Assembly: GCF_035920345.1 (NCBI RefSeq) | Contig: NZ_CP109149.1 | Span: 9,610,001 to 9,674,000 of the forward strand | From: Nocardia vinacea | Lineage (GTDB): Bacteria > Actinomycetota > Actinomycetes > Mycobacteriales > Mycobacteriaceae | Length of the DNA: 64,000 nt | Reading direction: 5' to 3' | In this document: positions 13,080-44,363 of the stretch, piece after piece | Layout: each line of letters starts with the position of its first letter | Numbering within the stretch: the stretch's first letter is position 1 | Made by a program: the position numbers and the translations under genes | Notes under the pieces: model-generated | Told to the model about the DNA's origin: nothing | The model's input: only the letters and a program-made list of their open reading frames with translations | Database searches by the model: none

Positions 13080-13085
13080 GCCGAA

Positions 13086-25136: not shown

Positions 25137-25874
25137 TTGAATGTCGAACCACCTGTCCAGGCCAAGCTGCTCCAGCTCGCCGCCGTCGACGCCGAACTGA
25201 CGCGGATCGCGCATCGGCGCACCGTGCTGCCCGAGCAGCAGGAGATGGCGCGGCTCGAGGGCGAGCGGAATGCGCACAAGGATGCGGCGGTGGCGGTCGA
25301 GATCATGCTCGACGATCTCGACCGCGATATCCGCAAGCTGGAGGGCGAGGTCGACGCGGTGCGCAAACGCGAGGAGCGCGACCGCGGCATGTTGACCGCT
25401 GGTTCGGTGGGCGCCAAACAGCTTTCGGAAATTCAGCACGAACTGGGCAGCCTGGAGCGACGCCGTTCGGTGCTGGAAGACGAGCTGCTCGAGGTGATGG
25501 AGCGTCGCGAGGCGTCGGCATCCGATCATGATCACGCGGGTGCCCGGCTCAGCAAGACCGAGCAGGAGCTGGCCGATGCGCAGCGCCTGCGCGACGAGGC
25601 GCTGGCGGATCTCGATGTGGCACAGGGCCGTTGCGATTCCGATCGCAAGGATCTGGTCGCGCTGTTCCCGGACGAACTGCTGAGCATCTATGACCGGCAG
25701 CGCACCCAGCACGGCGTCGGCGCCGCGCTGCTGCAGGCCCGCCGGTGCGGCGCGTGCCGGATCGAACTGGACCGCGGTGAGATCGCGCGGATCGCCAAGA
25801 CCGCGCCGGATGTGATCATGCGGTGTCCGGAGTGTGGTGCGATCCTGGTGCGCACCAAAGAGTCGGGTTTGTGA
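25137..25874 (+). CDS. Coiled-coil zinc-ribbon protein (DUF164/CT398-like, Rv2229c homologue)
   Basis: A 245-aa protein with a long antiparallel coiled coil (about residues 5-175) and a C-terminal C4 zinc ribbon (CGAC … CPEC). Related chlamydial and actinobacterial proteins bind partners such as sigma-54 or Nif3-type proteins, but the role here is unknown. A TTG at 25137 was taken as start: GGAG lies 11 nt upstream and MNVEPPVQAKLLQLAAVDAE fits the family N-terminus, while the upstream frame reads poorly. It sits 82 bp before the RNase H/phosphatase gene, as in M. tuberculosis. Confidence 0.85.
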   Translation: MNVEPPVQAKLLQLAAVDAELTRIAHRRTVLPEQQEMARLEGERNAHKDAAVAVEIMLDDLDRDIRKLEGEVDAVRKREERDRGMLTAGSVGAKQLSEIQHELGSLERRRSVLEDELLEVMERREASASDHDHAGARLSKTEQELADAQRLRDEALADLDVAQGRCDSDRKDLVALFPDELLSIYDRQRTQHGVGAALLQARRCGACRIELDRGEIARIAKTAPDVIMRCPECGAILVRTKESGL

Positions 25875-25956
25875 GGTTTCCGGTGCGGGTATCAGTACTC
25901 GCGTCGGTCCGCTCTCAGCGACGGATGGTCGGCTGTCGAAGAGGACGAGGGGAACA

Positions 25957-27246
25957 ATGACCGAGCGCGAGGTGATCGTCGAGGCCGACGGCGGTTCCCG
26001 GGGCAATCCGGGCCCGGCTGGCTACGGCGCGGTCGTCTTCGGTGCCGATCACATCCGAATTCTCGCCGAGCGCAGGGAATACATCGGTATCACCACCAAT
26101 AATGTCGCTGAATACCGCGGGCTCATCGCGGGTTTGGAGGCGGCGGCGGAGCTGGGTGCGCGCGTGGTGTCGGTGCGCATGGATTCCAAGCTCGTGGTCG
26201 AGCAGATGTCCGGCCGCTGGAAGGTCAAGCACGCGTCCATGATTCCGCTGGCCGACCGGGCACGCAGGCTTGTCGCCGGCTTCGACAGCGTGACGTTCAC
26301 CTGGATTCCGCGCGCCGAGAACTCACATGCCGACCGGCTGGCGAACGAGGCGATGGATGACGCCACACTGATCGGCGAGGTGCACGCCGCCGAGCGGCAG
26401 TTGCTCGATGCGGGCGCAGCGGCCGCCACTCTGGCCGAAGAGGTGCGCGAGGCCGAAGAACAGCTGCTCGGCTTGACCGATGAACCGCAGACTTCTGCGC
26501 GCGGCGTCGAAGAGCACCTGCCGAGTTGGATCGACGAGATCCGTGATGCGCAGTCGACCGCATCGAATACCGAAGCCGCCGAACGCAAGCCGCCGACCGC
26601 CGCCGAAAATGCACCCGCCTGGACCGGTGCGACCGGCCGTCCGACTCGCTTCCTCCTGCTGCGCCACGGCCAAACCGCCCTCTCGATAGATCGCCGCTAC
26701 TCCGGCCGCGGCAACCCACCCCTCACCGACCTCGGCCGTGAACAGGCCGCCCGCGCCGCGAAAATGCTCGCCGCGAAGGGTGGCATCGCCGCGGTTATCA
26801 CCTCCCCGCTCGGCCGCGCCCGTGAGACCGCCGAAGCCGCCGCGACCGCACTCGATGTTCCGGTGCGCGTCCTCGACGGCCTCACCGAAACCGACTTCGG
26901 CGAATGGGAGGGTCTCACCTTTCAGGAAGCGGCACAACGAGATCCGCAACTACATGCCCGCTGGCTGGGCGATCCCTCGACTCCCGCGCCGAACGGCGAG
27001 AGTTTCGACCAGGTGCGCGAACGAGTCGAGGCGGCGCGGCGTGATCTGCTCGCCCTGTATCCCGGCCAGAACATCGTGGTGGTCAGCCATGTGACCCCCA
27101 TCAAGACCCTGCTGCAGTTGGCACTCGGTGTCGGTCCGTCGCTGCTGTACCGCCTGCACTTGGACCTGGCGTCGCTATCGATCGCGGAGTTCTATCCGGA
27201 CGGCGGTTCGTCGGTTCGGTTGGTCAACGACACGTCCTACCTCTGA
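25957..27246 (+). CDS. Bifunctional RNase HI / acid phosphatase (Rv2228c-type)
   Basis: A 429-aa fusion. Residues about 1-140 are RNase HI, cleaving RNA in RNA:DNA hybrids; acidic residues are visible in EADGGSRGNPGPAGYG, NNVAEYRGL, RMDSKLV and ENSHADRLANEAMD. A charged linker of about 80 residues follows. Residues about 225-429 are a histidine phosphatase of the CobC/phosphoglycerate mutase fold (LLLRHGQTALS, GEWEGL, VVSHVTP). In mycobacteria the second half has alpha-ribazole phosphatase-like activity, which would link it to B12. The ATG has GAGGGG upstream. Confidence 0.93.
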   Translation: MTEREVIVEADGGSRGNPGPAGYGAVVFGADHIRILAERREYIGITTNNVAEYRGLIAGLEAAAELGARVVSVRMDSKLVVEQMSGRWKVKHASMIPLADRARRLVAGFDSVTFTWIPRAENSHADRLANEAMDDATLIGEVHAAERQLLDAGAAAATLAEEVREAEEQLLGLTDEPQTSARGVEEHLPSWIDEIRDAQSTASNTEAAERKPPTAAENAPAWTGATGRPTRFLLLRHGQTALSIDRRYSGRGNPPLTDLGREQAARAAKMLAAKGGIAAVITSPLGRARETAEAAATALDVPVRVLDGLTETDFGEWEGLTFQEAAQRDPQLHARWLGDPSTPAPNGESFDQVRERVEAARRDLLALYPGQNIVVVSHVTPIKTLLQLALGVGPSLLYRLHLDLASLSIAEFYPDGGSSVRLVNDTSYL

Positions 27247-27563
27247 GGAAGTTGGGCATCGGACCAAACCCGAATCTTTTCGCGAACCGTGAATTATGGC
27301 GCATCACAATGGATTCGGCCTGTCGAAACGACCCCTTTGGGTGGAATCTCACACGGTAACGTTTCAGACACGGTTATAGCGGTAGGCTTCGGGTCGGTCA
27401 GGCACAGGCATCCCGCCCCGCCTGTCTGGTCGGGGATAACGAAGGTCTTCGAACAGTGCTGCTCGGGGGGATGACAGCTGACGAGCAGCGTTGCTCGGTG
27501 GTCGCTTCGAACGATGAAGTAGTCCTGTGCGGTCGAGTGATTTCGATGGAAGCGCAGGTTCGA
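27247..27563. other. Gene-free upstream region of the NRPS locus
   Basis: About 317 bp without a convincing gene before the monooxygenase-condensation gene. It contains a TAGGCT box at 27383-27388, a candidate -10, and two partly similar segments, CACGGTAACG near 27353 and CACGGTTATAG near 27369. Alternative starts of the next gene (27456, 27471, 27546) fall inside it. Confidence 0.4.
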
Positions 27564-30038
27564 ATGAGTAGTCCGATCAAGGTTATCGTGCTCGGTGCGG
27601 GGATCGGAGGGCTCACCACCGCCGCCGCATTGCGACAGGCGGGCTTCGCGGTCGAACTCTATGAGGCCGCTCCCGAACTGCGTGGCCAGGGATTCGGACT
27701 TTCGGTGCAGGCCAATGGGATCAAGGCGCTGCGTGCGATCGGCCTCGGCATCGAGGAGGAACTGTTCGAGCGCGGTGGCAAGGTCGAGACCTTCAGGTTC
27801 AACAACCCGGACGGCACACCCATCCGAGTGCTTCCGGTGCACCGCCAGGACGACCGGCTCGGCGCATCGAGCGTCGCCCTGCACCGCAAGGATCTGCACG
27901 CGATCCTGCTGCGCGCGATCGGTGACACCCCGACTCATGTTGGCGCACAAGCGACTCGGTTCGTCGACGACGGTGAGCACGTGCGCGTCGAATTCGCCGA
28001 CGGCCGCATCGCCGAGGGCGATCTGCTGATCGGCGCCGACGGCATCCACTCGGTGGTGCGCGCCCAATTGCACGGCCGCGCCGAACCGCGCCCCGGCAAT
28101 TTCGTCGCCTGGTTGGCTTGCATCCCGTTCGAACATCCCGCCGTGCCGCGCGGCTACTCGGCCCACTATTGGGGCACCGGAATGCGTTTCGGCATCCACG
28201 ACATCGGCCACGGCCGGGTGTACTGGTGGGGCACGATGACCATGCCGGGCGACGAGGCCGCCGATTGGCAGGGCACCAAGGAAGATCTGCGGCGGCTCTA
28301 TGCCGACTGGGCGCCGGAGGTGCGCGCCTGCATCGATCAGACCGAATGGGCCGATGTGCTCGCCGTGCCCTGCCAGGACCGTCCGCCGCTGGACGGCTGG
28401 GGCCGCGGCCGGGTCACCCTGCTCGGCGATGCCGCCCATCCCATGCTGCCCAGCCTGGGCCAGGGCGCCAACTCTGCCATCGAGGACGCGGTCGTGCTCG
28501 CCCACACACTGAAGACTTCGCTGGATCCTGTTGCGGGCCTGCGTCGTTACGAGGAGGCGCGCGCCGAGCGCACCGCCATGTTCGTGAACGGCTCGTGGTC
28601 GCTCGGCAAGATCGAGCAAACGACCGATCCCAAGCTGGTGAAGGTGCGTGACACCTACTTCCGGCACGTACCCACTGAATTCTTCCTGCGCGAATTGGGC
28701 AAGCCGATGTCGTTCCCACCGCTGGAGGGACCGACCGCGCGGCTGCCGCGCCAACTGTCTCCGGTGGAGCGCTGGCATTGGATCGCGGATCAGCTTGCGC
28801 CGCTGCATATTCTGGCCCGGGTGCGGGTGCACGGCTCGATTACCGCGGAGCAGGTGCGTACCGGCTTGGACGAAGTGCAGCACCGACATCCGCTGCTCGG
28901 TGTCGCGGTGGCAGCCGAACCCGACGGCACCGCACCGCGTTTCGTGCCGGTGCCCACGCCGATTCCGCTGCGGGTGGTCGAATCCGCCGATCCGGATGCC
29001 TGGTTGACCGAGGTCGACGAGGTCGAATTGCGCGAACCCTTCGACTGGCACTCCGGTCCGCTCGCGCGCGCCGTGCTCATCACGGATGCGACCGGTGAGA
29101 CCAGCGATCTGATCGTCACCCTGCACTATGCGATCGCCGACGGCGAGAGCGCGATGTCGGTGGCCAAGCAGGTGCTGCAGGTCGCCGCGGGCGAGGGTAA
29201 TGATCTCGAGCCAGCACCGGTCCGGCCGGGTCCGGAGGAACTGTTCCCGGCAAAGTTCCAGGGCGCCAAGGGCTTCGGCCGCACGGTGGGATCGCTGCTG
29301 CGCGACCAGAAGTCGCAGCTGAAGCGGCCGCGCCGACTCGAACCGACCGAACTCGCAGCGCCGTCGCGACGCCGCAGCCGGGTCGTGCACCGCAGCCTGG
29401 ATGCCGATCAACTCGACGCATTGACCGCAGGCTGTGAGCGCAAGGGCGTCGGCCTGCAGGCCGCGCTCTCGGCGGCGCTGCTCATCGCGGCGGCCCGCGA
29501 GTCGGGCACCTACACCGAATCCTGGTACACCGTCGGCAGTTCGGTGAACTTCCGCGGCCACCTCGACGGCGCGGTCGGCGATGCCGAGGTCGGGACCTAC
29601 CAGGGCATGATCGCGACCCCGGCGAAGTACGCACCATGGTCCTCGCTGTGGCAGCTCGCGGGCGAAATCGAGCGCGAGTACGGCGCGAGAATGGACCGGC
29701 GCGACCATCTCGCGGCCATGAGCCTGCTGAAGGTGGCCGCCCCGAAATCGGTGGCCGCCAGTGCATCCACGGTCAAGCTGATGGACACCCGCGGTCCAGG
29801 TCACCTGTGTATGACATATCTGGGGCGCTATGCGTTCCCGGACAAGATCGGCGCGTGGCAGCTCGCGGGCGCGCAATTCGTCTCGGGCATGTCGGTGAGC
29901 GGCTTCATCATGGCCACCGCCAATGCCACGCATGGCGAATTGTCGTTCAACATCGGCTATGTCGAGCCCGCGGTGTCGCGTGCGCGTGCCGAACGTCTTG
30001 CCGACGAGAGTGTGCGCGCACTGCTGTCGGTGATCTGA
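27564..30038 (+). CDS. FAD-dependent monooxygenase fused to a condensation/PapA-like domain
   Basis: An 824-aa two-domain protein. Residues 1-375 are a class A flavin monooxygenase: the FAD-binding GAGIGG at 11-16, LLIGADGIHSVVR, and VTLLGDAAHPMLPSLGQGAN with Asp289. From about residue 400 a condensation or acyltransferase-like domain begins (RQLSPVERWHWIADQLAPLH). Its core motif reads LHYAIADG, so the second, catalytic His of HHxxxDG is Tyr522. The later NFRGHLDG region is kept. Probably hydroxylates a substrate bound or presented by the partner NRPS, which begins about 180 bp downstream (inference). The start at 27564 gives the usual N-terminus; 27456, 27471 and 27546 are alternatives. Confidence 0.82.
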   Translation: MSSPIKVIVLGAGIGGLTTAAALRQAGFAVELYEAAPELRGQGFGLSVQANGIKALRAIGLGIEEELFERGGKVETFRFNNPDGTPIRVLPVHRQDDRLGASSVALHRKDLHAILLRAIGDTPTHVGAQATRFVDDGEHVRVEFADGRIAEGDLLIGADGIHSVVRAQLHGRAEPRPGNFVAWLACIPFEHPAVPRGYSAHYWGTGMRFGIHDIGHGRVYWWGTMTMPGDEAADWQGTKEDLRRLYADWAPEVRACIDQTEWADVLAVPCQDRPPLDGWGRGRVTLLGDAAHPMLPSLGQGANSAIEDAVVLAHTLKTSLDPVAGLRRYEEARAERTAMFVNGSWSLGKIEQTTDPKLVKVRDTYFRHVPTEFFLRELGKPMSFPPLEGPTARLPRQLSPVERWHWIADQLAPLHILARVRVHGSITAEQVRTGLDEVQHRHPLLGVAVAAEPDGTAPRFVPVPTPIPLRVVESADPDAWLTEVDEVELREPFDWHSGPLARAVLITDATGETSDLIVTLHYAIADGESAMSVAKQVLQVAAGEGNDLEPAPVRPGPEELFPAKFQGAKGFGRTVGSLLRDQKSQLKRPRRLEPTELAAPSRRRSRVVHRSLDADQLDALTAGCERKGVGLQAALSAALLIAAARESGTYTESWYTVGSSVNFRGHLDGAVGDAEVGTYQGMIATPAKYAPWSSLWQLAGEIEREYGARMDRRDHLAAMSLLKVAAPKSVAASASTVKLMDTRGPGHLCMTYLGRYAFPDKIGAWQLAGAQFVSGMSVSGFIMATANATHGELSFNIGYVEPAVSRARAERLADESVRALLSVI

Positions 30039-30072
30039 CGGGGGTTCTCACACCCGTAAACGAGGGCGAATC

Positions 30073-30094
30073 CCGGCATCGAGGTCGATGCCGG
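30073..30094. repeat. 9-bp hairpin upstream of the NRPS gene
   Basis: CCGGCATCG (30073-30081) pairs with 30086-30094 across an AGGT loop, 35 bp after the monooxygenase-condensation stop. There is no T-run. Confidence 0.5.
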
Positions 30095-30136
30095 TAATTC
30101 GCGCTATCTGAAAACTGGATACAAGTGGTAACAGCT

Positions 30137-30208
30137 ATGCGTTTCGGCGTCGTCAGGGGTGGGTCCTGGACAGTTCGCGCACGGTCTGTGCCGCGACTGT
30201 CGCGATAG
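30137..30208 (+). other. Possible 23-codon upstream ORF before the NRPS gene
   Basis: ATG at 30137 opens 23 codons (MRFGVVRGGSWTVRARSVPR…) closing at TAG 30206-30208. The stop lies against the GGAG that serves the NRPS start, an arrangement that could couple translation. Its own ribosome site is weak. Confidence 0.25.
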
Positions 30209-30216
30209 GAGTGACT

Positions 30217-33200
30217 GTGACGTCGGAAACCAGCACAAATCCCGAAAGACCAATCGAAGCATGGCCGGTCAGCGCATATCAGCGCGATGTGCTCGGCCTG
30301 GCATTCCGGCTGGCACCGGAACCCGTTGCGCAGCAGACCTATAGCCTGCGCATGGATGAGCCGCTGGATATCGAGCGGCTGCAGGCGTGCTGGCAGCGCG
30401 CCCTGATGAGCGATGAGGCATTGCGACTGCGCTTCGCCTTCGAGAACGGCGAATTCCGCCAATGGATTTCGAATGAGATTCCGCCGGTCGAGGTCGTCGA
30501 CCTGACCGGAGCACCGGACCCCGAGGCCGCGACCCAGGAGTGGCTGTGGCGCGAGGTCGGCGCGCCGGAGCGACCGGATCGGCCCGCGCGGCTGGCCGCG
30601 GTGGTGGACAGGCCGGACCGGTTCTTCCTGTTCATGTCGTTCCATCACGCGCTGGCCGACGGCTACGGCATGAATCCGGTCATCGCCACGCTCGATACCA
30701 GCTACAAGATGAAAGACGTTCCGCTCGAACAGCTTGCGGTGCCCGAGCCTGCCAACGAGCACACGGACCGTTCCGTGGCAACCTATCGGCGGATCATCGA
30801 GGACGACGAGGCGTACCGGACCTCCGAGCAGTACACGGCGGACCGCGACGGTCTGCTCGCCGCGCTCGACGGTGTCGAACCCGCCCTGTTCCCCCATCGG
30901 ACCAGCTCGCCGAGAATCGCCCGCGGACACTACAACACGATGATCTCGGGGAAGCACCTCGACCGCGTCCGCGCCACCGGTGTCACCGTCTTCGCGTATC
31001 TGACCGCCGCGGTGGCAACGTATCTCGCGTCGATCCACCGCACCGATCAGGTGGTGATCGGCGTTCCGATGCTGAACCGGCACTCGGCGGAGACCTATCG
31101 CACGCAGGGCCATCGCGCCAATGCCGTTCCGCTGCCGGTGCGTGTCGATCGCGACGTGCCGCTAGCGCGTATCGCGGAGCAGGTGACCCAGCAGATTCGA
31201 AAGCTCAAGAAGCATCAGCGCTTCCCCTACGGCGAGCTGACCCGCGCGCTGAATCCGGATCCGGCCGCGCCGCCGCTGTACGACGTCGCCTTCTCCCACA
31301 CGAAGCTGCCGGATGCCGATTACGTCCACGAGCTGATCTCGAAATGGACGGTGCACAATCCGGGTTCGGTGACCAACGCGCTCACTATCGTCACTGCGGA
31401 AAATGGCCGCGACGGGTCGTTCAGCCTCCAGTTGTTCTACGACACAGACATTTTCGACGCGAGCTTCCCGATCGAATCGGCGCTGCGCAGCGTCGGCGAA
31501 ATGGTCACCGCGTCGCTGGACAATCCGGAGACCCCGGTGGGTGCGCTGCCGCTGCTTTCGGCACAGGCGAGTGCCGAAGTCGAGGCCTTCGAGGCTGGTC
31601 CGCGTATCGAATTCCCCTACACCACCATTGATCGGCTCTTCACCGAAAAGGCCGCCGACCATCCGGACCGGGTGGCGGTCGTATCCGCCGACTCCCGCGA
31701 ACTGACCTACGCCCGATTGTCCGGTCTGGTCGACGGTTTCGCAGCCCGCCTGCATGAGCTCGGTGCCGCCGGCAACGAGTGCATTCCGGTGGTTCTGCCC
31801 CGTTCGACCGACATGCTCATCGCGGTGCTCGGCATCCTGCGTGCCGGATGCGCTTACGTGCCGCTCGATCCGGACTACCCGGCGGCGCGTGTCGAAACGG
31901 TTCTCGCGGACTGCGAAGCACGGTTCGTGGTCGCTGGAAGCGAGCATGCGCAGGTCTACCGAGACCTCGGCATCACCCGTATCTCGGTGGCCGACACTGT
32001 GCCCGGCACCGTCGAAAATGTTTCGCACCCACACGATTTGAGCTATCTCATCTACACCTCGGGCTCCACCGGTGTGCCCAAGGGTGTGATGGTCGAGCAC
32101 CGCTCGGTGGTCAACCGGCTGACCTGGATGCAGCGCCGCTACCCGCTGTTCGCCGATGACGTGATCCTGCAGAAGACGCCCGTCACCTTCGACGTTTCGG
32201 TGTGGGAGTTGTTCTGGTGGGCCATCACCGGTGCCAAGGTCGCGCTGCTCGAGGTCGGTGGTGAGCGCGATCCGCGCCGCATTGCCGAGGCCATCGAGGC
32301 GAATGCGGTGACCGTCGTGCACTTCGTGCCGTCCATGCTGGCGGCCTTCGTCGACGAACTGGAGGCCGATCGTACGATCGTGCCGCGCATCGCGGGCCTG
32401 CGCCGGGTGTTCTGCAGTGGTGAGGCGCTGCCGCCCGCGCTGGTCCGCCGCTTCCATGCCGCGTTCGCCACAGTCGCTCTGCGGCCGCCCCAGTTGGTGA
32501 ATCTCTACGGTCCCACCGAGGCCACCGTGGATGTCTCGTATTTCGAGTGCCCGCAAGGGGATTTGCTGGATCTGGTGCCCATCGGCCGTCCGATCGACAA
32601 TATCGACTTGCTGGTGCTCGACGAATCCGGTCGCCGCATGCCCATCGGCGTTCCCGGCGAGCTCAATATCGCCGGAGTCGGCCTCGCGCGCGGCTACCGT
32701 GGCCGCCCCGACCTGACCGCGGCCGCATTCGTCGACGATCTGACCGTGCCCGGCCGTCGCCGCTACCGCACCGGTGACCTGGCGCGCTGGCTGGCCGATG
32801 GCACCCTGGAGTATCTGGGCCGTTTCGATGATCAGGTCAAGATCCGCGGTAACCGGATCACCCTCGGCGAGGTGCAGAATGCCATCCTGGGCTGTGGGGG
32901 TGTGCGCGCGGCGGTTGTCGTCGACGAGCAGTCCGAAACGCATGGGCTGCATCTGGTCGGATATTTCGTCGGCGATGCCGTGACCGGTGACGAGATCGCC
33001 GAACAGATCGCGCTTCGCCTGCCCCGCTACATGATTCCGACCCGGCTGCTGCGCGTCGACCGGATTCCGTTGACCCCCAACGGTAAGACCGATCGCAAGG
33101 CGCTGGTCCGGGCCGCGGCGGTTTCGGAGCATCCGGACTTCGTCGGCGTGCCGATCGAACCGCGGACACCGGTCGAGGCCGAGCTGGCACAGGTCTGGCG

Positions 33201-36200
33201 GACCGTGCTCGGTATCGACTCCATTGGTGTACACGACAACTTCTTTACCCACGGCGGTGACTCCATACTCGCGCTATCGGTACGCACCGCAGCCGAACGC
33301 GGCGGACTGTTCTTCGATGTGGATGCCTTCTATGAGCATCCGACCATTGCCGAATTAGCCCAGATTGTCTCGGATGGCCCGGACGGCAACCGGATTCGCA
33401 TCGCCGATCCATTGGCGACCGTGCCGCTGATCGACCGCGCCGCACTGCATCAGGTCGAGGATGCCTTTCCGGCCAGCGCGCTGCAGCTCGGCATGCTCTT
33501 CCACAGCATCGAGCGCACGGATTCGGTGACCTACAAGGACGTATTCCGCTATCGGTTCGAAATGCCCTGGGATGCTGCGCAATTCCGCGCCGCATTCGAC
33601 CGGCTGGTACGCCGTCAGCCCGCACTGCGCTCCTCGTTCGAGCTGAGCAAGTATTCGGTCCCGCTGCAGGTCGTGCATACCGCGATCGAGTACGAGATGG
33701 ACATCGTCGATGTCTCCGATCTCGATCCGGTGCTGGCCGATCAGGATGTCGAGGACTACACGCAGGAACGCAGGCACGCCCAGTATGACCTCGCGCGTGC
33801 CCCGCTCCATGCCGTCCGGGTATTCCTGCAGCCGTCCGAGGGCACCCTCCAGACCGTCGATCTGGTGCTCAGCTTCCACCACGCCATCCTCGACGGGTGG
33901 AGTGTCGCGACCTCGGTGCTCGAGCTGCTGGTCGACTACCTGAACAAGCTGGGACTGATCGAAACCGATATCGATGGCACGCCGCATGCGGCCACCGTCC
34001 TCGCCGAGTACGCCCGGTCCGAAATTGCCGCGGTGCACGATGATTCGGCCCGCGAGTTCTGGCGCGAGGCGCTGGCCGGTGCCGAGCCGACCGCGTTGAC
34101 TGCCCTCGGTGTCCACGAGGGTGCGGATGCGCAGGACCCACGGGCCGCCGCCCTGGTGCCGCGTCGGCTCGCCGAGCGGGTCACCGCCTTCGCGGCTCGG
34201 CATCAGGTGCCCGAGAAGGCGGTCTACCTGGCGGCGCACTGCCTGACCCTGCGCACGGTGACCGGCCGCGCCGATATCACCACCGGCGTGGTCAGCCACG
34301 GCCGACCGGATCGGGCGGGCGCGGAAAGTATCGCGGGCCTGTTCCTGAACACGCTGCCGATGCGGCTGGACGATACCGCCACCACCTGGCGCGCGGCCGT
34401 AGAGCAGATAGCCCGCCGGGATCGCGACGCCTACCCGCACCGACGCTATCCACTGCGGTCGATCCTGGCCGATGGTGGGCCCGTGTTCGAGACGGCATTC
34501 AACTTCATCAACTACCACGTCTTCGCACCGATTCTCGGTACGGACCGAGTCACCCTGCGCGACTTCGACGTTCGCGAGGACACCAATTTCCAGCTGCTGG
34601 TGACGGTGGCCCATGATCCGCGCGACGGCCGAATGTGGGTACGGGTCAACGGTGATCACACGCTGACCAAGGACCAATGCGAGACCGTCGCGGTGACTCA
34701 GCTGCGCATGTTGGCGGCGATCGTCGCGGATCCGGATGCGGCGATCGATCGCGGTACCGGTCCGGCGACCGCGCGCGATGTCGGCACACTTGTCGCCGAC
34801 GCGGCCGCGCTCAATCCGCACACCATCGCTGTTCAGGGTGACGAATCCAGCCTCACCTACGACGAACTGATCGAGCGCAGCGAGCGACTCGCCCGGTGGC
34901 TCAACGGTTTGGGGGTCGGGCCCGGCGACCGGATCGGCATCCTGATGAGCCGTCGCCCGGAGTTGGTGCTGCTGGTGCTGGCTCTCATGCGAATGGGCGC
35001 GGCCTGCGTGCCGCTCGATGTCAGCTACCCGCGGGCCCGGCTGAATCTCATGATCGACCGCGCCCGTCCGCACCGGGTGATCGCCGACGCCGCCTATGCC
35101 GAGATCGTCGACAGTGCTCGACTGGTGCTGGACACGGCGGAGGTGTTCGATCCGACGGCTGAGAGTGATATAGATTTCGCTGTCCCGGACTACATTTCGC
35201 CCGACGCACTCGCCTACGTGTTGTTCACCTCCGGCTCCACCGGCGAGCCCAAGGGCGTCGCCATGTCGCACCGCGGCCTGAGCACGCTGGTGGACTGGCA
35301 GAACCGCAGCCCATCGGGCATGAATCTGGCCAGCACATTGCAGTTGGCGCCGTTGAGCTTCGACGTGTCGTTTCAGGAGATCTTCACGACCCTGGCGGCG
35401 GGGTCCACACTGCGGGTGAGTTCGGCGGACTTGCGCGCCGATGTCGAGGAATTGCTCAATACCGTTGTCGACGAAGGCATAGAGCGGCTGTTCCTGCCCT
35501 ATGTCGCACTGCAGGCCTTCGCGGAGGCCGTGGTCGCCCGGCGAAAGTTCCCGATCGACCTCAAAGTGCTCGCGTCCTCCGGTGAGCAATTGCGCATCAC
35601 CGACGAGATCCGTGCGCTATGCAAAGTGGTGCCGGGGCTATTGCTGGAAAACCAATACGGCCCAACGGAATCCCACGTCGCGACGGTATTCACCCTCGCG
35701 GGTTCACCCGACGACTATCCGGCGCTGCCACCGATCGGACGCCCGGTCGACGGCGATACCGTCGAATTGCTCGACAGCGCACTGCGCCCGGTGACCGACG
35801 GTGTGATCGGTGAGATCTATCTCGGCGGCCGTTCCCTCGCCCGCGGTTACCAGGGCCGGGCGGCACTGACCGCACAGCGGTTCGTGGCCACCCACGGGGG
35901 CGGAGTTCTCTATCGCACGGGCGATCTCGGCGTGCGGCTGGCCTCCGGCGATCTCGTCTGCCTCGGCCGCAGCGACAGTCAGGTGAAGATCCGCGGTTTC
36001 CGGGTGGAGCCCGCCGAGGTGGAGCTGTGCATTCTCGGACTGGTCGAGAAGTATCCGACCATCACCGAGGCGGCGGTGGTGGCACGGGGATTCGGCGGCA
36101 TCGACGGTGCGCTGATCGCCTTCCTCGTCGGTGCCGCCGAGCAGACCGATCTGACCGCGTTGCGCCACGATCTGCGCGGCGTACTGCCCGCGCATATGGT

Positions 36201-37443
36201 GCCCTCGCGATTCGTCTTCCTCGACGAACTGCCCCGCACCCCCAGCGGTAAGCGCGACGACGGCGCTTTGCGTTCGATCGTCGAATCCGCACCGGAATCG
36301 GTTACCGCACAACGGGAACCGGCCGACGAATACGAGCACTCCGCAGTCGAGCTACTTGCCGAATACGCGGGGCTACGTTCCATCGGCCTCGACGACGATT
36401 TCTTCGCCGCGGGCGGCACCTCCATCGGCGCGATGCGCGTGGTGATGGGGTTGTCCCGGCGCTTCGGCGCCGAAATACCGCTGGATTTGTTCATCGGCGC
36501 GCCGACGGCCGCCCAACTCGCGGCGCTGATCCGGTCCGGAAATACTCGGCGCACCTTCGACCCGCTGGTGCCGATCACCGTCGGCGGGCATAAGCCGCCG
36601 TTGTTCCTGGTGCATCCGATCGGCGGAAATGTGCTGTGCTACTTGACGCTTGCCCGCTACCTCGATCCGGATCGCGCGATCTACGGCCTGCAGGCCGCGG
36701 GCGCGGATGCGGGCAGCACACCGGAGAAGACGATCGTCGGGATGGCCGAGTCCTATCTGGCGGCGGTGCGTCGCGTGCATCCGGAGGGGCCCTACCACCT
36801 GGCCGGCTGGTCTTTCGGTGGCAATGTCGCGCTCGAGATGGCGCGGCAACTGCCCGAGCGGGAGGTGGCCAGCGTGACGCTGCTGGACACCATGGCATTG
36901 CGTCAGCAGGCTCGCGAACCCATTGCCGAGGAACAGCTCATTCGCTGGTTCTTCCTCGAATTGCTCTGGTACGCACGCAGAAATAAGGCCGCGCTCGTCG
37001 ATTTCGAACCCGACGTGCACGGATCCGAGGCGCTCTTCGACGCGATGCTCGCCGAGGCGATCAGGTCGGGAATTCTGCCCGCCGACAGTTCACCGCAGGC
37101 GATCCGGCGGCTATACGAGGTGTTCTACGCCAACTACACGGCGTTGCTCGAGTACCAGCTCGAACCCTACGACCGCGATATCACCCTGCTGCGCGCCGAG
37201 GAGGGCCTGCCACCCGGTGTGGATCTCGCGCACCAGGCCGTCGGCAGCATGTTCGACAGCGCGAACAACGGGTGGCAGCAGTATGCGGCCAGGCGCTTCA
37301 CGCTGGTTCCCGTACCCGGCGACCACCTGCACATGATGACCGAACCGCACGTTCGCGAGGTCGCGGTGCAGTTGGACTCGGCGCTCGGGGCGGCCGATCC
37401 GGATCCGGACCGGGAGCTCGGCGCCGAAATGCTCGACGCCTGA
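30217..37443 (+). CDS. Dimodular non-ribosomal peptide synthetase, C-A(Ser)-T-C-A-T-TE
   Basis: A 2408-aa synthetase. Domains: C1 about 10-430 (HHALADG, catalytic His144); A1 about 470-960 (YTSGSTGVPKG near 613, NLYGPTEATVDV, YRTGDLA, NGKTDRK); T1 Ser1016 in GGDSI; C2 about 1085-1510 (HHAILDG, His1222); A2 about 1535-2030 (FTSGSTGEPKG, NQYGPTES, SGKRDD); T2 Ser2069 in GGTSI; thioesterase about 2125-2400 (GWSFGG Ser2199, Asp2224, His2370). The A1 code reads DVWHFSLVDK, the known serine code. A2 reads DVQFASQVAK, not recognised. An N-terminal C domain implies an acyl starter or an upstream donor. GTG 30217 has GGAG 5 nt before it; GTG 30211 is an alternative. Confidence 0.93.
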   Translation: MTSETSTNPERPIEAWPVSAYQRDVLGLAFRLAPEPVAQQTYSLRMDEPLDIERLQACWQRALMSDEALRLRFAFENGEFRQWISNEIPPVEVVDLTGAPDPEAATQEWLWREVGAPERPDRPARLAAVVDRPDRFFLFMSFHHALADGYGMNPVIATLDTSYKMKDVPLEQLAVPEPANEHTDRSVATYRRIIEDDEAYRTSEQYTADRDGLLAALDGVEPALFPHRTSSPRIARGHYNTMISGKHLDRVRATGVTVFAYLTAAVATYLASIHRTDQVVIGVPMLNRHSAETYRTQGHRANAVPLPVRVDRDVPLARIAEQVTQQIRKLKKHQRFPYGELTRALNPDPAAPPLYDVAFSHTKLPDADYVHELISKWTVHNPGSVTNALTIVTAENGRDGSFSLQLFYDTDIFDASFPIESALRSVGEMVTASLDNPETPVGALPLLSAQASAEVEAFEAGPRIEFPYTTIDRLFTEKAADHPDRVAVVSADSRELTYARLSGLVDGFAARLHELGAAGNECIPVVLPRSTDMLIAVLGILRAGCAYVPLDPDYPAARVETVLADCEARFVVAGSEHAQVYRDLGITRISVADTVPGTVENVSHPHDLSYLIYTSGSTGVPKGVMVEHRSVVNRLTWMQRRYPLFADDVILQKTPVTFDVSVWELFWWAITGAKVALLEVGGERDPRRIAEAIEANAVTVVHFVPSMLAAFVDELEADRTIVPRIAGLRRVFCSGEALPPALVRRFHAAFATVALRPPQLVNLYGPTEATVDVSYFECPQGDLLDLVPIGRPIDNIDLLVLDESGRRMPIGVPGELNIAGVGLARGYRGRPDLTAAAFVDDLTVPGRRRYRTGDLARWLADGTLEYLGRFDDQVKIRGNRITLGEVQNAILGCGGVRAAVVVDEQSETHGLHLVGYFVGDAVTGDEIAEQIALRLPRYMIPTRLLRVDRIPLTPNGKTDRKALVRAAAVSEHPDFVGVPIEPRTPVEAELAQVWRTVLGIDSIGVHDNFFTHGGDSILALSVRTAAERGGLFFDVDAFYEHPTIAELAQIVSDGPDGNRIRIADPLATVPLIDRAALHQVEDAFPASALQLGMLFHSIERTDSVTYKDVFRYRFEMPWDAAQFRAAFDRLVRRQPALRSSFELSKYSVPLQVVHTAIEYEMDIVDVSDLDPVLADQDVEDYTQERRHAQYDLARAPLHAVRVFLQPSEGTLQTVDLVLSFHHAILDGWSVATSVLELLVDYLNKLGLIETDIDGTPHAATVLAEYARSEIAAVHDDSAREFWREALAGAEPTALTALGVHEGADAQDPRAAALVPRRLAERVTAFAARHQVPEKAVYLAAHCLTLRTVTGRADITTGVVSHGRPDRAGAESIAGLFLNTLPMRLDDTATTWRAAVEQIARRDRDAYPHRRYPLRSILADGGPVFETAFNFINYHVFAPILGTDRVTLRDFDVREDTNFQLLVTVAHDPRDGRMWVRVNGDHTLTKDQCETVAVTQLRMLAAIVADPDAAIDRGTGPATARDVGTLVADAAALNPHTIAVQGDESSLTYDELIERSERLARWLNGLGVGPGDRIGILMSRRPELVLLVLALMRMGAACVPLDVSYPRARLNLMIDRARPHRVIADAAYAEIVDSARLVLDTAEVFDPTAESDIDFAVPDYISPDALAYVLFTSGSTGEPKGVAMSHRGLSTLVDWQNRSPSGMNLASTLQLAPLSFDVSFQEIFTTLAAGSTLRVSSADLRADVEELLNTVVDEGIERLFLPYVALQAFAEAVVARRKFPIDLKVLASSGEQLRITDEIRALCKVVPGLLLENQYGPTESHVATVFTLAGSPDDYPALPPIGRPVDGDTVELLDSALRPVTDGVIGEIYLGGRSLARGYQGRAALTAQRFVATHGGGVLYRTGDLGVRLASGDLVCLGRSDSQVKIRGFRVEPAEVELCILGLVEKYPTITEAAVVARGFGGIDGALIAFLVGAAEQTDLTALRHDLRGVLPAHMVPSRFVFLDELPRTPSGKRDDGALRSIVESAPESVTAQREPADEYEHSAVELLAEYAGLRSIGLDDDFFAAGGTSIGAMRVVMGLSRRFGAEIPLDLFIGAPTAAQLAALIRSGNTRRTFDPLVPITVGGHKPPLFLVHPIGGNVLCYLTLARYLDPDRAIYGLQAAGADAGSTPEKTIVGMAESYLAAVRRVHPEGPYHLAGWSFGGNVALEMARQLPEREVASVTLLDTMALRQQAREPIAEEQLIRWFFLELLWYARRNKAALVDFEPDVHGSEALFDAMLAEAIRSGILPADSSPQAIRRLYEVFYANYTALLEYQLEPYDRDITLLRAEEGLPPGVDLAHQAVGSMFDSANNGWQQYAARRFTLVPVPGDHLHMMTEPHVREVAVQLDSALGAADPDPDRELGAEMLDA

Positions 37444-37595
37444 GCGGTGTGGCCCAACCCTGCACACGACGCGTCAACTAGAGTTCCGGGGTGGCCGCAG
37501 CTGTCGGGGGCGGCTCTCCATCGTGTGTGCGGTTGGCCAAAGCCTGAGTCGATTCCAATGTCGGCCAGCGCTTTTCGAGAAGGAGAGTAGTTGCC

Positions 37596-38285
37596 GTGAA
37601 GTTCGGAATGATCGCGTTGTGCTCGGCGGCCGTCGGACTCGTGGGGGCCGGTACTGCCCACGCGACCGGAGATGCCGTGATCGGCGGCAGTTCCGGCCTG
37701 GTCTTCAATAACAACGCCGTGTGCTCGCTGACCACGATCGGCTACGACAGCGACGGGCGCCTCGTCGGGCTGACCGCGGGGCACTGCGCCCCGACCGGCG
37801 CGCGATTCGGCGCCGAGCGTTTCCTGGATGCCGGTGTGATCGGCACGGTCGCATACTCCGATGAGGGCGAAGGCCTCGATTTCGCTGTGCTGCAATTCGA
37901 TCCGGCCAAGGTCACGCCCGTGCGCAATGTCGGGCCGACCATCATCGCCGGATTCGGTGCGGCGCCCGCGGCCGGCGGACCGGTGTGCACGAGCGGGCGC
38001 AGCAGCGGATTCGACTGCGGTGTGGTCTGGGGTTCGCTGGAGGGCACCACCATCAACCAATCCTGTTCCAAGCCGGGCGATTCCGGTGGTCCGGTCACCG
38101 TCGGTGATCGGCTGGTCGGCATGAATCAGGGGCGGCTGACCGGAATCGGTGGCGTCGGATTCAATATTCCATGCATCTTCCCCGCGAATCCCATTCACTC
38201 ACCGGCATTCTTCGCGCCGATCGATCAGATACTTCAGGCCGTCGACGCCACCGGCGGAGTCGGCAGCGGATTCCAGCCCATCTGA
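37596..38285 (+). CDS. Secreted trypsin-like serine protease (S1 family)
   Basis: A 229-aa exported protease. A signal peptide (about residues 1-23, ending AHA) is followed by a chymotrypsin-fold domain with His in LTAGHCAP, Asp in LDFAVLQF and Ser in KPGDSGGPV. Paired Cys residues (VCSLT with GHC, VCTSG with DCGVV) suggest disulfides. It resembles small actinobacterial proteases with a modest activity record. GTG start with AAGGAG upstream. Its last 52 bp overlap the end of the convergent XRE regulator gene. It begins 152 bp after the NRPS gene but shows no evident link to it. Confidence 0.88.
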   Translation: MKFGMIALCSAAVGLVGAGTAHATGDAVIGGSSGLVFNNNAVCSLTTIGYDSDGRLVGLTAGHCAPTGARFGAERFLDAGVIGTVAYSDEGEGLDFAVLQFDPAKVTPVRNVGPTIIAGFGAAPAAGGPVCTSGRSSGFDCGVVWGSLEGTTINQSCSKPGDSGGPVTVGDRLVGMNQGRLTGIGGVGFNIPCIFPANPIHSPAFFAPIDQILQAVDATGGVGSGFQPI

Positions 38286-39109
38286 TCCGTCGACAAGTTG
38301 TGCGCCGCCGCGAGCCCGCGCAGGGCTGCGGTGGTGAATTCGTCGAGCGGGTAGAACAACTCGATCGCGAGTTCGGACAGCGTGACGTCGGCGGGTGCGC
38401 CGAAGGTGGCCATGGTGCTGAACATGCGTAGTTCGCCGAACGGAGTTCGGATGCGCAGCGGCACCTCGAACGGATTGGGTTGTGCCGCATCGTCCTCGGG
38501 TTCAACGATGAAATCCGGTGGTAAGGGATAGGCGGCGACCTCGTCGTAGAGTGTTCGGAGCTCGGCGTCGCCGGTGGCATTGACCTGGCGGGACAGTCGC
38601 TCCAGGAACAACTCTCGCACCTGGGTCAGGTTGACGAGGCGGGCCGCGAGGCCGTCGGGATGCAGCACCAGCCGGTAGACATTCGGTTGCGGCAGCATCA
38701 GCGCTTCGGGGATATCGGCCATGAACAGGCCCATGGCGTTATTGCCGGTGACCACATTCCACAGGCGGTCCACCACCACCGCCGGATAGGGCTCGTGCGC
38801 GGTCAGCATGATGTCCAGTGCGGAGCGGACTGAGGCCAGGCGCGCATCGTCGAGGCTGCTCTCCCGGTAGGCCGGTGCGTAGTCGGCGGCCAGCAGCAGG
38901 GTGTTGCGCTCGCGCAGCGGCACCTCCAGCGCATCGCAGAGCCGCAGAATCATGGCTCGGCTGGGTTTGGCCCGTCCGGTCTCCATATAGGAGATGTGGC
39001 GCGAGGAACTGTCCGCGGCCAGCGCCAGGTCGAGCTGGCTGAGCCTGCGCCGCTGCCGCCAGTCGCGCAGCAGGGTGCCGACCCGCGATTCCGTCTGATT
39101 TACCGCCAC
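38234..39109 (-). CDS. XRE-family regulator with MmyB-like ligand-binding domain
   Basis: A 291-aa regulator. Residues about 8-66 are a helix-turn-helix (LSQLDLALAADSSSRHISYM, ETGRAKPS) and the rest is the MmyB-like, PAS-related domain of this family, often binding fatty-acyl ligands. The neighbouring divergent gene, a small membrane protein 127 bp away, is the probable target, since such regulators usually control an adjacent divergent gene. The GTG start has TAACCT six nt upstream and no ribosome site. Its 3' end overlaps the convergent protease gene by 52 bp. Confidence 0.9.
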   Translation of the reverse strand: MAVNQTESRVGTLLRDWRQRRRLSQLDLALAADSSSRHISYMETGRAKPSRAMILRLCDALEVPLRERNTLLLAADYAPAYRESSLDDARLASVRSALDIMLTAHEPYPAVVVDRLWNVVTGNNAMGLFMADIPEALMLPQPNVYRLVLHPDGLAARLVNLTQVRELFLERLSRQVNATGDAELRTLYDEVAAYPLPPDFIVEPEDDAAQPNPFEVPLRIRTPFGELRMFSTMATFGAPADVTLSELAIELFYPLDEFTTAALRGLAAAHNLSTDQMGWNPLPTPPVASTA

Positions 39110-39115
39110 CTGGGC

Positions 39116-39121
39116 AGGTTA
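39116..39121 (-). promoter_or_regulatory. -10 box of a leaderless promoter for the XRE-family regulator gene
   Basis: TAACCT on the minus strand ends 6 nt before the GTG at 39109. Confidence 0.5.
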
Positions 39122-39236
39122 ATCAGCGCCGCGTGCGCTCGGCCATGACCTCAGAGGTTATTGAGACCTTCACCTCAGGCCCGGCATGGTCGGTTTCGGG
39201 AGCCGATCGGCTGCCGGATCGACAGAGGAGAAGAAG

Positions 39237-39632
39237 ATGAGCACACTCGTCGCGCGCACCGATTACCTGCGTACCGTGCTGCGCTTGGATGGCTGGGGCA
39301 CCGGGGTGTTCGGCGTCGTCATGCTGGCCGGAGCGGCTGCGCTGAGTGGGCCGTTGGGGCTGCCGACCGCCTGGTCCATTCCTTTCGGCGTCGCGATGGT
39401 CGGCGGCGGACTGGCGCTGCTGCTCATTGCCGGATACCCGGACCTTGTGCCGAGCCATGCGGTCGCTGTTATCGGGGTCAATATGGTCTCGGCGCTGGCA
39501 CTGGTGGTGCTGCCGTTCTCGGGTCTGTTCGACTTGACCGGGCTCGGGGTCGCGTTCCTGCTGATCGGCGCGGTGTGGGTTGCGGTGTTCGCGGCGCTGG
39601 AGGTGAGTGGGGTGCGGCGGGCCGGGTTGTGA
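39237..39632 (+). CDS. Small four-helix membrane protein
   Basis: A 131-aa protein with four predicted transmembrane helices (for example FGVVMLAGAAALSGPLGL and VAVIGVNMVSALALVVL). No enzymatic motif is visible. It is preceded by GGAG 6 nt before the ATG. Divergent from the MmyB-type regulator, it is the likely regulated gene; MmyB-family partners are more often short-chain dehydrogenases, so this pairing is unusual. No family was named. Confidence 0.75.
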   Translation: MSTLVARTDYLRTVLRLDGWGTGVFGVVMLAGAAALSGPLGLPTAWSIPFGVAMVGGGLALLLIAGYPDLVPSHAVAVIGVNMVSALALVVLPFSGLFDLTGLGVAFLLIGAVWVAVFAALEVSGVRRAGL

Positions 39633-39700
39633 ACCTCGGTGCCGTCGGATCTCATGACGGACGCGCCCGTCGAGATGTCATCCGGGATGGCGAGCCGGTC

Positions 39701-40207
39701 CTACCCGGACGTCACCGCAATGAACATCTCGTTCTCCAGCCGCGGATCATCCTCTGCGCACCGCTGTTGACCTCCGGTGAAGGCGAAACCTGTTCGCAGG
39801 TACAAGGACTCGGCGTGATGATTGCCTTCGACAACCCAGAGTCGAAGTTCGCCGTGTCCATGTGCCCTGGTCCAGTCGATAGTGGTGGCCAGCAGAAGGT
39901 CCGAGGCTCCGGTGCCGCGTGCGCTCGGATTCACCCAGACCGACACCACGGTCGGCGGACTGTCATCGGTCTTGGTGACGATGCCCGCCGAGCCGACGAC
40001 TCCGCCGTCGCGTTCGGCGACGAACAGCAGCCGTGTACCCATCCACTGCCGCCATTGCGGTTCATCCCACTGCGATGCGACCTCGAATGTCGAAGCGAAC
40101 GTCCCCGGTGGGGATCCCGCTAGTGCGTCGAGCCGAATCTCTCGGGCGACTGTCCATTCGTCCCCGCCCAACTGCCGCACCCTCATCCGGCGATCGTGCA
40201 CCGACAC
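39701..40207 (-). CDS. GNAT-family N-acetyltransferase
   Basis: A 168-aa acetyl-CoA-dependent acyltransferase. The GNAT core is seen in VVSVWVNPSARGTGASDLLLATTIDW (the R/QxxGxG/A loop) and the later ELRLWVVEGNHHAESLYLRTGF. The substrate is unknown. The GTG at 40207 lies 3 bp after the stop of the preceding small gene, so it is part of that transcript; ATG 40186 is an alternative. Confidence 0.87.
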   Translation of the reverse strand: MSVHDRRMRVRQLGGDEWTVAREIRLDALAGSPPGTFASTFEVASQWDEPQWRQWMGTRLLFVAERDGGVVGSAGIVTKTDDSPPTVVSVWVNPSARGTGASDLLLATTIDWTRAHGHGELRLWVVEGNHHAESLYLRTGFAFTGGQQRCAEDDPRLENEMFIAVTSG

Positions 40208-40210
40208 CGC

Positions 40211-40618
40211 TCAGCGCAGTCGGCCGCGACGATTCGTCAGTCGCCCGTCGTGTATGGCCTGGTTGCGCAGCGATTCGATCGTCTCGGTATCCCGTTCGTG
40301 GGCGAGATCCAGCATGGCGAGTCCGGTTTCGCGGATCAGCCCATCCAGGTCGTCGAGCATCGCGGCGATCGCATCGCCGGCCGTCCGCAATTCGGCGGCG
40401 CTCGGATCCGGCCGATCGAAGACCATGCGGAGTTTGTGCAGCCGCAGCCCGGTGTCGAAGAGGCGGCGCACCAGCCGATCGCTGGTATCGGCGAACGCGG
40501 TGGCGGTTCCGGATAGCTCCTTGGTGGGGCCGAATGATCGTCGCGGCCTACGCCACGTGCCTCGGCTGTTGCCCACGCGGGCGCCGGTCCGGGAGCTCGA
40601 CCGCACATCGTCGGGCAT
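40211..40618 (-). CDS. Small helical protein resembling the dimerisation helix of DevS-type kinases
   Basis: A 135-aa protein with an excellent AGGAGG ribosome site. The N-terminal 35 residues are basic and probably disordered. Residues about 40-100 resemble the HisKA_3 dimerisation region of NarL-system kinases (DTSDRLVRRLFDTGLRLHK compared with the usual RDLHDxVIQRLF), but the phosphoacceptor His is replaced by Ser and no ATPase domain follows. It is divergent from the pyridoxamine-oxidase-fold gene and leads a two-gene operon with the acetyltransferase. The kinase relationship is an inference from pattern alone. Confidence 0.6.
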   Translation of the reverse strand: MPDDVRSSSRTGARVGNSRGTWRRPRRSFGPTKELSGTATAFADTSDRLVRRLFDTGLRLHKLRMVFDRPDPSAAELRTAGDAIAAMLDDLDGLIRETGLAMLDLAHERDTETIESLRNQAIHDGRLTNRRGRLR

Positions 40619-40853
40619 CGAAATCCTCCTGAGTCGTTTGATTTGTATTCGGTGGCCACGTTTCGGGACCCCGGAGACGTGGCCGTTCTACTGCGCCCGA
40701 TTTCGGCGGCGACGAACGGCTCCTTCGGAAAACCGATACCTGTTTATCCTTCGTACCGTGTAATTGCTTGGTAGGCAACATGATCACTGCCTGTCCGAAG
40801 CGAGATGATCGATTGGGGGATGCTTCGCGTGACGAACTGGTGGATAATGGGGT

Positions 40854-41273
40854 ATGGCAGTAGACGGTGTCCGGGAGTCACGCGAACTGTCGGTCGATAC
40901 CGCACTGCACCTGCTGGGCACGATCGGGTTCGGGCGTGTCGCGTTCTCGCGCTACGCCTTACCCGCGATTCGCCCGGTCAGCCATGCGTTGGTCGAGGAC
41001 CATCTGGTCATCTACGCCGACGCCGCGACGACCGGTGCGCTCGATCGTCAGGTCGTGGCCTATGAGGTGGACGCGATCGACCACCGGACCTCGCTCGGCT
41101 GGTGCGTGATCGTGACCGGCATCGCCGACACCGTGCGTGACCAACACGAAATCGTGCACTACCAACAGTTCTTGCCCGCTCGCACGGTCGGTTCTGGTGA
41201 TCGAGTGACCAGAATCCTGCCCGACATTGTCACCGGAGTCGAGTACGTAGGGCTGGTAGACGCCGATCGGTAG
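40854..41273 (+). CDS. Pyridoxamine 5'-phosphate oxidase-fold flavoprotein
   Basis: A 139-aa split-barrel protein likely to bind FMN or F420. The N-terminal signature GTIGFGRVAFSRYALPAIRPVSH and later GWCVIVTGIADTV match small family members, several of which are in the dormancy (DosR) regulon of mycobacteria. The exact reaction is unknown. The 235-bp divergent region (40619-40853) shared with the His-less kinase-like gene has no gene. It is convergent with the NUDIX gene, 4 bp apart. Confidence 0.82.
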   Translation: MAVDGVRESRELSVDTALHLLGTIGFGRVAFSRYALPAIRPVSHALVEDHLVIYADAATTGALDRQVVAYEVDAIDHRTSLGWCVIVTGIADTVRDQHEIVHYQQFLPARTVGSGDRVTRILPDIVTGVEYVGLVDADR

Positions 41274-41277
41274 TCGT

Positions 41278-41856
41278 TCAATGGTTCGGAATCCTTTCGG
41301 GGAGTAGCGGTTCGAGTTTCGTGAGGAAGCGCGCGAAATGTGGATCGGCGTCGGTGTGGTCGAAGGTGTCGATATCCCACCAGCGTGCTTCCGCGAATTC
41401 GCCCGGGTCCAAGGTGTATTCGCGGGTGCGGTCGCCGCGGATGACGTACCAGAGGCTGACATCCTGGTGTCCGCTGTGCGTGCCGACCGTCGTCGTGACA
41501 GTGAGGAACAGCGGTTCGGTCCCGATGACGGTGAATTCGGGATCGATGCCCAACTCCTCGGCGGCCTCGCGTCCGGCGGCGGTCAGCGGATGTTCTCCCG
41601 GCGAGATGTGGCCGCCGGTCGGCAGCCACAGACCGGCGAGGAGATGTCGGCCGAGCAGCACGCTGCGGGCTCGCGGGTCGACGAGCACCACATACGAGAC
41701 CAGATGCCGTGGGGGAGTATCGGGTTTGACGCGACGGAACACATCGTCGGTCGAGGCCAGCCAGGCCCTGGTGTCCTCGATATGCTGCCGCTCGAGCGCA
41801 TCGAGTGGCGTGATCGCGTCGACGATATCGGCGACGGTCGCGGTCGCGAGGTTCAT
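41278..41856 (-). CDS. NUDIX hydrolase
   Basis: A 192-aa hydrolase of nucleoside-diphosphate-linked compounds. The Nudix box is complete: GGHISPGEHPLTAAGREAAE followed by ELG. An N-terminal helical region of about 45 residues precedes the fold (RQHIEDTRAWLASTDDVFRR), seen in actinobacterial members. The substrate is unknown. TACAGT eight nt before the ATG suggests a leaderless transcript. Confidence 0.88.
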   Translation of the reverse strand: MNLATATVADIVDAITPLDALERQHIEDTRAWLASTDDVFRRVKPDTPPRHLVSYVVLVDPRARSVLLGRHLLAGLWLPTGGHISPGEHPLTAAGREAAEELGIDPEFTVIGTEPLFLTVTTTVGTHSGHQDVSLWYVIRGDRTREYTLDPGEFAEARWWDIDTFDHTDADPHFARFLTKLEPLLPERIPNH

Positions 41857-41864
41857 GGCAGGTG

Positions 41865-41870
41865 ACTGTA
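41865..41870 (-). promoter_or_regulatory. -10 box of a leaderless promoter for the NUDIX gene
   Basis: TACAGT on the minus strand ends 8 nt before the ATG at 41856. Confidence 0.4.
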
Positions 41871-41892
41871 GCCGCAGGCACCGACAGGTTTA

Positions 41893-43941: not shown

Positions 43942-44363
<422 letters not shown>

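Follow-up and report, generated by a model that had tools for sequence, protein, structure and literature searches.

The 64,000-nucleotide stretch of Nocardia vinacea DNA analysed here (contig NZ_CP109149.1, positions 9,610,001 to 9,674,000; the window) is the 9.61–9.67 Mb region of a single contig of 10.36 Mb. It carries two adjacent large genes, which lie where the initial annotation had placed them (Table 1). The first encodes a fusion protein. In Pfam, FAD_binding_3 (PF01494) occupies residues 6–339, PF16911 (PapA_C) matches residues 605–724 above its cut-off, and PF00668 (Condensation) matches the C-terminal part below its cut-off. That one open reading frame (ORF) encodes both a class A flavin monooxygenase and a condensation/PapA-like domain, as annotated, is therefore correct. 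The second gene encodes a dimodular non-ribosomal peptide synthetase (NRPS), and the order given for its condensation (C), adenylation (A), thiolation (T) and thioesterase (TE) domains, C-A-T-C-A-T-TE, is confirmed. The GTG at 30217, 5 bases 3' of AGGAG, is a likelier start codon for the NRPS than 30211. Of the named loci retrieved, one from Nocardia vinacea stands nearest for the fusion (98%).

Table 1. Features of the locus (positions in the window).
Feature	Position	Strand	Remarks
Fusion ORF	27564–30038	+	824 aa; FAD_binding_3 and Condensation/PapA_C-like C-terminal part
Putative LgnC/BraC/PxaB/AzeC-type flavin (Baeyer-Villiger) monooxygenase domain	27564–28739	+	Residues 1–392 of the fusion
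AzeD-like (PapA/condensation-fold) domain	28740–30035	+	Residues 393–824 of the fusion; Tyr522, His405, Ser660, Gln680
Dimodular NRPS, C1-A1-T1-C2-A2-T2-TE, azeB/braB/pxaA-like	30211–37443	+	2410 aa
C1 domain, putatively acyl-loading	30253–31605	+	Part of NRPS
A1 domain	31642–33111	+	Code DVWHFSLVD
A2 domain	34783–36270	+	Code DVQFASQVA
Thioesterase domain	36568–37425	+	GWSFGG; cyclising release proposed
RNase H/histidine phosphatase gene	25834–27246	+	Insertion border; outside pathway
MmyB/XRE-type regulator	38234–39109	-	3' of NRPS
Right border gene	42952–43839		Homologue used to define the slot in other Nocardia
RNase P RNA (class A)	43946–44361		Complete match, Rfam

The flavin domain carries the residues required by LgnC, the monooxygenase of legonmycin biosynthesis. 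H201, R208, Y220 and W222 of the window align with H200, R207, Y219 and W221 of LgnC. In the excerpted account of LgnC, H200A and W221A abolished the activity, Y219F lost 95% of it and R207 was partly important, and H200, Y219 and W221 are described as conserved in LgnC homologues and missing from other Baeyer-Villiger enzymes (PMC11457151). Across the loci, Tyr and Trp were found in all 47 fused copies, with His in 41 and Gln in the other 6, and the 23 unfused copies had Trp in 23, Tyr in 21 and His in 22; both sets draw on two collections and contain some duplicates. In the database protein lists (120 of 131 fused proteins at E <= 1e-100, and the best 120 of 3315 stand-alone proteins), all three residues were kept in 108 of the listed fused proteins (the exceptions were Gln in 8, Leu in 3 and one W to C) and in 109 of the listed stand-alone proteins. 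The small counts are soft, as the His position of one N. transvalensis protein reads Leu in one alignment and His in another. As negative controls, all three residues occurred together in none of 11 further class A monooxygenases fetched from the same genome (20–29% identity) and in none of 10 relatives of another family at 38–40% identity. The monooxygenases of loci L131–L140, from a different actinobacterial family and at 38–40% identity, retain the Tyr and the first Trp, with His changed to E, N or G and the second Trp to F or Y, and possibly represent a neighbouring enzyme family. YWWxTKN and GDAAH are given as motifs of LgnC-like enzymes in an excerpt of a further study (PMC7820566). GDAAH is present in the window. 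The closest solved structures for the flavin domain are HpxO and similar hydroxylases, which have the same fold.

The adenylation domains point to serine and a proline-like residue. The A1 code is one that we take to be the serine code of EntF, and A1 is predicted to activate serine. The A2 core was best matched by the GrsB and TycB chains, which are presumably proline modules, and the A2 code begins with DVQ as in proline domains and is nearly invariant among 64 A2 rows. In two species groups (L041–L062), C1 is 44–53% identical to that of the window, versus 72–79% for A1 and 63–85% for the other domains. Three C1 sublineages were recognised, which suggests different acyl chains. In a quick tree, the C1 domains of L096 and L097 group with the window C1 and their flavin domains fall outside, which hints at C1 exchange between species.

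The second domain of the fusion matches AzeD (8s6l) in fold and sequence, as judged from one VIA-align row. The label dehydratase for the AzeD type comes solely from the PDB title of 8s6l, and the activity of the window domain is putative. The HHxxxDG motif reads HYAIADG in the window, with Tyr522 at the position of the catalytic His. Among the listed fused proteins, 66 have His at residue 522 and 51 have Tyr, with single cases of Phe, Cys and Gln; all 37 listed stand-alone relatives have His there, as does 8s6l. His405 and Gln680 accompany Tyr522 without exception (51 of 51 proteins), and Tyr405 is found in 61 of the 66 His522 fused proteins and 31 of the 37 stand-alone proteins. A simple His/Tyr exchange does not account for everything, because five fused proteins (four from Nocardia, one from Nakamurella) have His at both positions and Phe, Cys or Gln also occur at 522. 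When the window was compared with nine relatives from Nocardia, the ratio of non-synonymous to synonymous substitution rates (dN/dS) was 0.11–0.25 for the AzeD-like domain and 0.10–0.22 for the flavin domain; among three closer pairs it was 0.09–0.15 versus 0.07–0.08. The altered domain, with a dN/dS like that of the flavin domain, is therefore maintained. On two Streptomyces plasmids (L158 and L159), a gene at about 11950–13320 encodes a stand-alone AzeD/PapA-like protein of about 40% identity, surrounded by type III polyketide synthase, phenylalanine aminomutase and aromatic precursor genes. As no NRPS is annotated in these stretches, the AzeD fold appears to serve other pathways as well.

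The distribution of the pair was followed in 150 Nocardia genomes, the window's own included. At E <= 1e-60 the fused protein had a match in 70 of them; the full-length fusion is present in 46, including the disease-causing N. cyriacigeorgica and N. abscessus. The fusion lies upstream of the NRPS in 35 genomes (type i, 64–100% identity), and the NRPS lies upstream of the fusion in 11 (type ii, 47–50% identity). When the surroundings of all 46 fusions were inspected, the NRPS adjoined the fusion in 45, a count that takes in three loci with a contig end inside the NRPS (L038, L042 and L053). The two genes are thus not usually unlinked, which was the outcome that the initial annotation had named as evidence against a pair. 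One of these NRPS frames is without C1 and part of A1 (G057, L087), and another has an additional T-C stretch (G137, L064/L086). The sole unlinked case is Nocardia sp. NBC_01730 (G115), where the fusion is intact and no NRPS stands beside it; a search of this whole genome with the second NRPS module gave no match at E <= 1e-200. Its fusion (L099, G115:C1:8215000-8234900, ORF 9254–11743) looks like an orphan left after loss of the synthetase. It has Cys at the Tyr522 position, and a MmyB/XRE-like regulator gene comes directly after it.

Unfused relatives of the flavin domain, taken at E <= 1e-89 with 19 weaker monooxygenase or PapA matches left out, were found at 20 further loci in 19 Nocardia genomes. 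A related NRPS adjoins all 20 (split into two frames in L071, L072 and L080; in L073 ending at the stretch boundary and carrying additional C-T units), and an AzeD/PapA-like gene is found at 16. Fused and unfused kinds occur together in 3 genomes, and any form in 62 of the 150. Two copies of the family monooxygenase lie near one NRPS in L070, L073 and L083, and in L070 and L083 the AzeD-like gene was not found within the fetched stretch. Samples of 301 genomes from the family, 396 from the phylum and 394 from the class, some of them Nocardia, gave no full-length fusion outside Nocardia, and the fusion is therefore rare elsewhere. The Streptomyces, Kitasatospora and mycobacterial fusions considered here come from separate searches and not from these samples. 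On the Streptomyces plasmid pSSP121038, the NRPS and the fusion overlap by 4 bases; the A1 code is DVWHFSLID, the A2 code is DVQFISQVA, and the fusion has His522 and YWWGTKN.

The origin of the fusion was traced in trees of the two domains (97 rows for the AzeD-like and 87 for the flavin domain), the former built by a quick method with Shimodaira-Hasegawa-like approximate likelihood-ratio (SH-aLRT) supports only. In the AzeD-like tree, a Nocardia/mycobacterial fused clade contains nearly all of the Tyr522 proteins. The Streptomyces/Kitasatospora fused clade is separate, has His only and branches from within the stand-alone proteins; locus L063 of Nakamurella stands apart on a long branch. The flavin-domain tree agrees, with one unfused locus (L080) within the Tyr clade. 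As the fused proteins form two separate clades, the fusion arose at least twice. Such a natural joining of monooxygenase and AzeD suggests consecutive action of the two, which can be tested with one protein.

Between the RNase H/phosphatase gene and the right border gene, positions 27247–42951 of the window form a variable slot. The two genes had been annotated as an insertion relative to the gene order of M. tuberculosis; our comparison was with 15 fetched Nocardia genomes without the pair, and it is against these, not against M. tuberculosis, that the insertion is borne out. The slot is empty in nine of them, where the RNase H/phosphatase gene lies 23–98 bases from the homologue of the right border gene, and one has a gap of 585 bases. 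In the other five a trypsin-like gene occupies the slot, in one case together with an XRE regulator. A fusion or NRPS match within the slot was found in none of the 15. In type i genomes, a RNase H/phosphatase match precedes the fusion by about 247–356 bases in 33 of 35, by subtraction of match ends. In the remaining two, the match of G062 is below the search threshold, yet the border gene is upstream (L097), and the fusion of G028 sits elsewhere. The earlier statement that no regulator is nearby does not hold, as a MmyB/XRE-type gene follows the NRPS. It is present in 23 of 30 related loci, and several of the other seven stretches stop soon past the NRPS. The regulator also stands at the same place in one of the 15 genomes without the pair and is therefore not tied to the pathway. 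Genome-wide, three MbtH and three phosphopantetheinyl transferase matches are located away from the locus. On window positions 20000–46000, Rfam found nothing but the RNase P RNA. Promoter and terminator scans gave no excess over shuffled sequence.

We propose, with a probability of roughly two in three, that the locus represents the azeB-azeC-azeD / pxaA-pxaB / braB-braC type of pathway in a fused form and makes a small bicyclic alkaloid. The proposal is built on the domain order, the LgnC residues, the serine code, the AzeD fold and the linkage, all observed here. The substrates (proline among them), the dehydration by C2, the product class and the AzeD step are what we infer. C1 would place an acyl chain onto the T1-held serine, and C2 would probably dehydrate the acyl-serine and couple it to the proline-like residue; in legonmycin biosynthesis, C2 is described as dehydrating the T1-bound residue, in an excerpt of that work (PMC8748450). 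TE could release the chain as a bicyclic indolizinone. The flavin domain may then insert oxygen in a Baeyer-Villiger reaction to give a seven-membered oxazepine-dione, which would either open, lose CO2 and reclose to a pyrrolizidine or rearrange to a bicyclic carbamate. The product of the flavin domain would be the substrate of the AzeD-like domain joined to it, most likely for the dehydration/ring-closing step. A locus present in 46 of the 150 Nocardia genomes, for which no earlier product link was found in the literature passages and listings, would thereby receive a likely product class.

Several points weigh against this proposal. The window reads YWWGTMT for YWWxTKN, so that YWWGT is kept and KN is changed to MT. 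The full motif is found in 16 of the 120 listed fused versus 56 of the 120 listed stand-alone proteins, commoner in the latter than first counted, and our confidence was lowered slightly. At several pocket positions the A2 code is unlike the canonical proline code, and the AzeD-like domain is without the His at the catalytic position. The likeness to BraC, PxaB, LgnC and AzeC was judged from published residues and motifs, not from direct sequence comparison. The last steps of the pyrrolizixenamide route are non-enzymatic according to an excerpt of the published work (PMC11177316), and an enzyme for them is thus not required.

The most serious alternative keeps the pathway and makes the Nocardia/mycobacterial AzeD-like domain a non-enzymatic docking, substrate-holding or solubilising module, which keeps the monooxygenase at the NRPS; we consider it unlikely, with a real share of the probability. 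X domains, for comparison, dock P450s. Of the 120 listed fused proteins, 54 no longer have His at the catalytic position, the Phe, Cys and Gln variants show that no one residue is essential there, and just 22 of 42 non-redundant proteins in the Nocardia/mycobacterial fusion group retain the DG glycine. The retained fold and the purifying selection would suit such a module, as would the loss of soluble LgnC once its trigger-factor tag was cut off, reported in the excerpted LgnC study (PMC11457151). In contrast, the invariable pairing of His405 and Gln680 with Tyr522 looks like a site re-tuned rather than abandoned, and His is kept in the Streptomyces-type fusions. A more specific form of the proposed pathway, which we advance only tentatively and think rather unlikely, would make the fusion a bifunctional alkaloid synthase that couples oxygen insertion to dehydration/ring closure. 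Its Nocardia/mycobacterial site would be re-wired from Y405/H522 to H405/Y522 with Ser660 and Gln680, and the condensation-fold dehydratase would steer an unstable carbamate towards a single product. Whether the AzeD fold here is an enzyme or a holder could be approached through the His/Tyr pattern.

Improbable, in our view, is a different product class, in which another acyl dipeptide is made and the flavin domain hydroxylates without a Baeyer-Villiger step. Besides the departures in the A2 code and the KN-to-MT change, this would fit the best named profile of the flavin domain, urate hydroxylase, below its cut-off. However, the three LgnC-required residues stand in most fused and unfused loci and never together in the tested unrelated monooxygenases, and the A2 core is GrsB/TycB-like. 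A true PapA-type acyltransferase (PF16911) adding an acyl chain to the product, which would agree with the PapA_C match and the shared condensation fold, is very improbable and placed last because of Tyr522 in place of the acyltransferase His and the match to AzeD, a nearest solved relative titled dehydratase, and C1 would already supply the acylation.

Self-resistance through ClpP, in the style of azetidomonamide or clipibicyclene, was considered and rejected, as neither the window nor any of 68 related loci (69 sequences) has a ClpP match. Four ClpP matches are present in 133 of the 150 Nocardia genomes. A fifth is found in 8 of the 62 genomes that carry a locus of either kind, versus 4 of the 88 others, too few to decide. 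Two ClpP gene pairs lie at G000:C1:8684915-8686053 and 9019171-9020414.

The initial annotation recognised no characterised pathway with this pair. This has to be revised, since a bimodular NRPS with one LgnC-type Baeyer-Villiger enzyme is the route to bacterial pyrrolizidines and lipocyclocarbamates in excerpts of published work (PMC11457151, PMC11177316, PMC11794875). The pathway family is already known; the fused gene and the changed AzeD-type site seem to be a new variation on it, and at the level of titles and abstract openings no report of either was found. The main texts of two genus surveys (PMC7413640, PMC12153302) do not contain 'pyrrolizi', 'brabantamide' or 'legonmycin', 'AzeD' is absent from PMC11794875 and PMC13386464, and PMC10880069 has only the spelling 'azedomonamide'.

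Compared with legonmycin of Streptomyces, the window shares the LgnC residues and differs in predicted substrate and gene layout, as the excerpts describe Thr and a split LgnB/LgnD with LgnA. Like the window, pxaA-pxaB of Xenorhabdus and braB-braC of Pseudomonas are described as a bimodular NRPS with a Baeyer-Villiger monooxygenase, and Ser and Pro are used in the pyrrolizixenamide and brabantamide cases (PMC11177316, PMC11794875, in excerpt). Unlike the window, the excerpts mention no AzeD-like part and no fusion for them. What decides between a pyrrolizidine and a carbamate in this family is called a current question in the excerpted PMC11177316. In P. aeruginosa, azeB, azeC and azeD of the azetidomonamide locus (PA3327–PA3329) are described, in excerpt, as encoding the NRPS, the monooxygenase and AzeD (PMC9040856). 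There azeC and azeD are separate genes, whereas they are fused in the window, and azeA/clpP2 adjoins the aze locus, whereas the window has no clpP. AzeD has Tyr and His at the positions where the window has His405 and Tyr522. There is a good likelihood that the locus belongs to the NRPS plus Baeyer-Villiger family, within which aze is closest to it.
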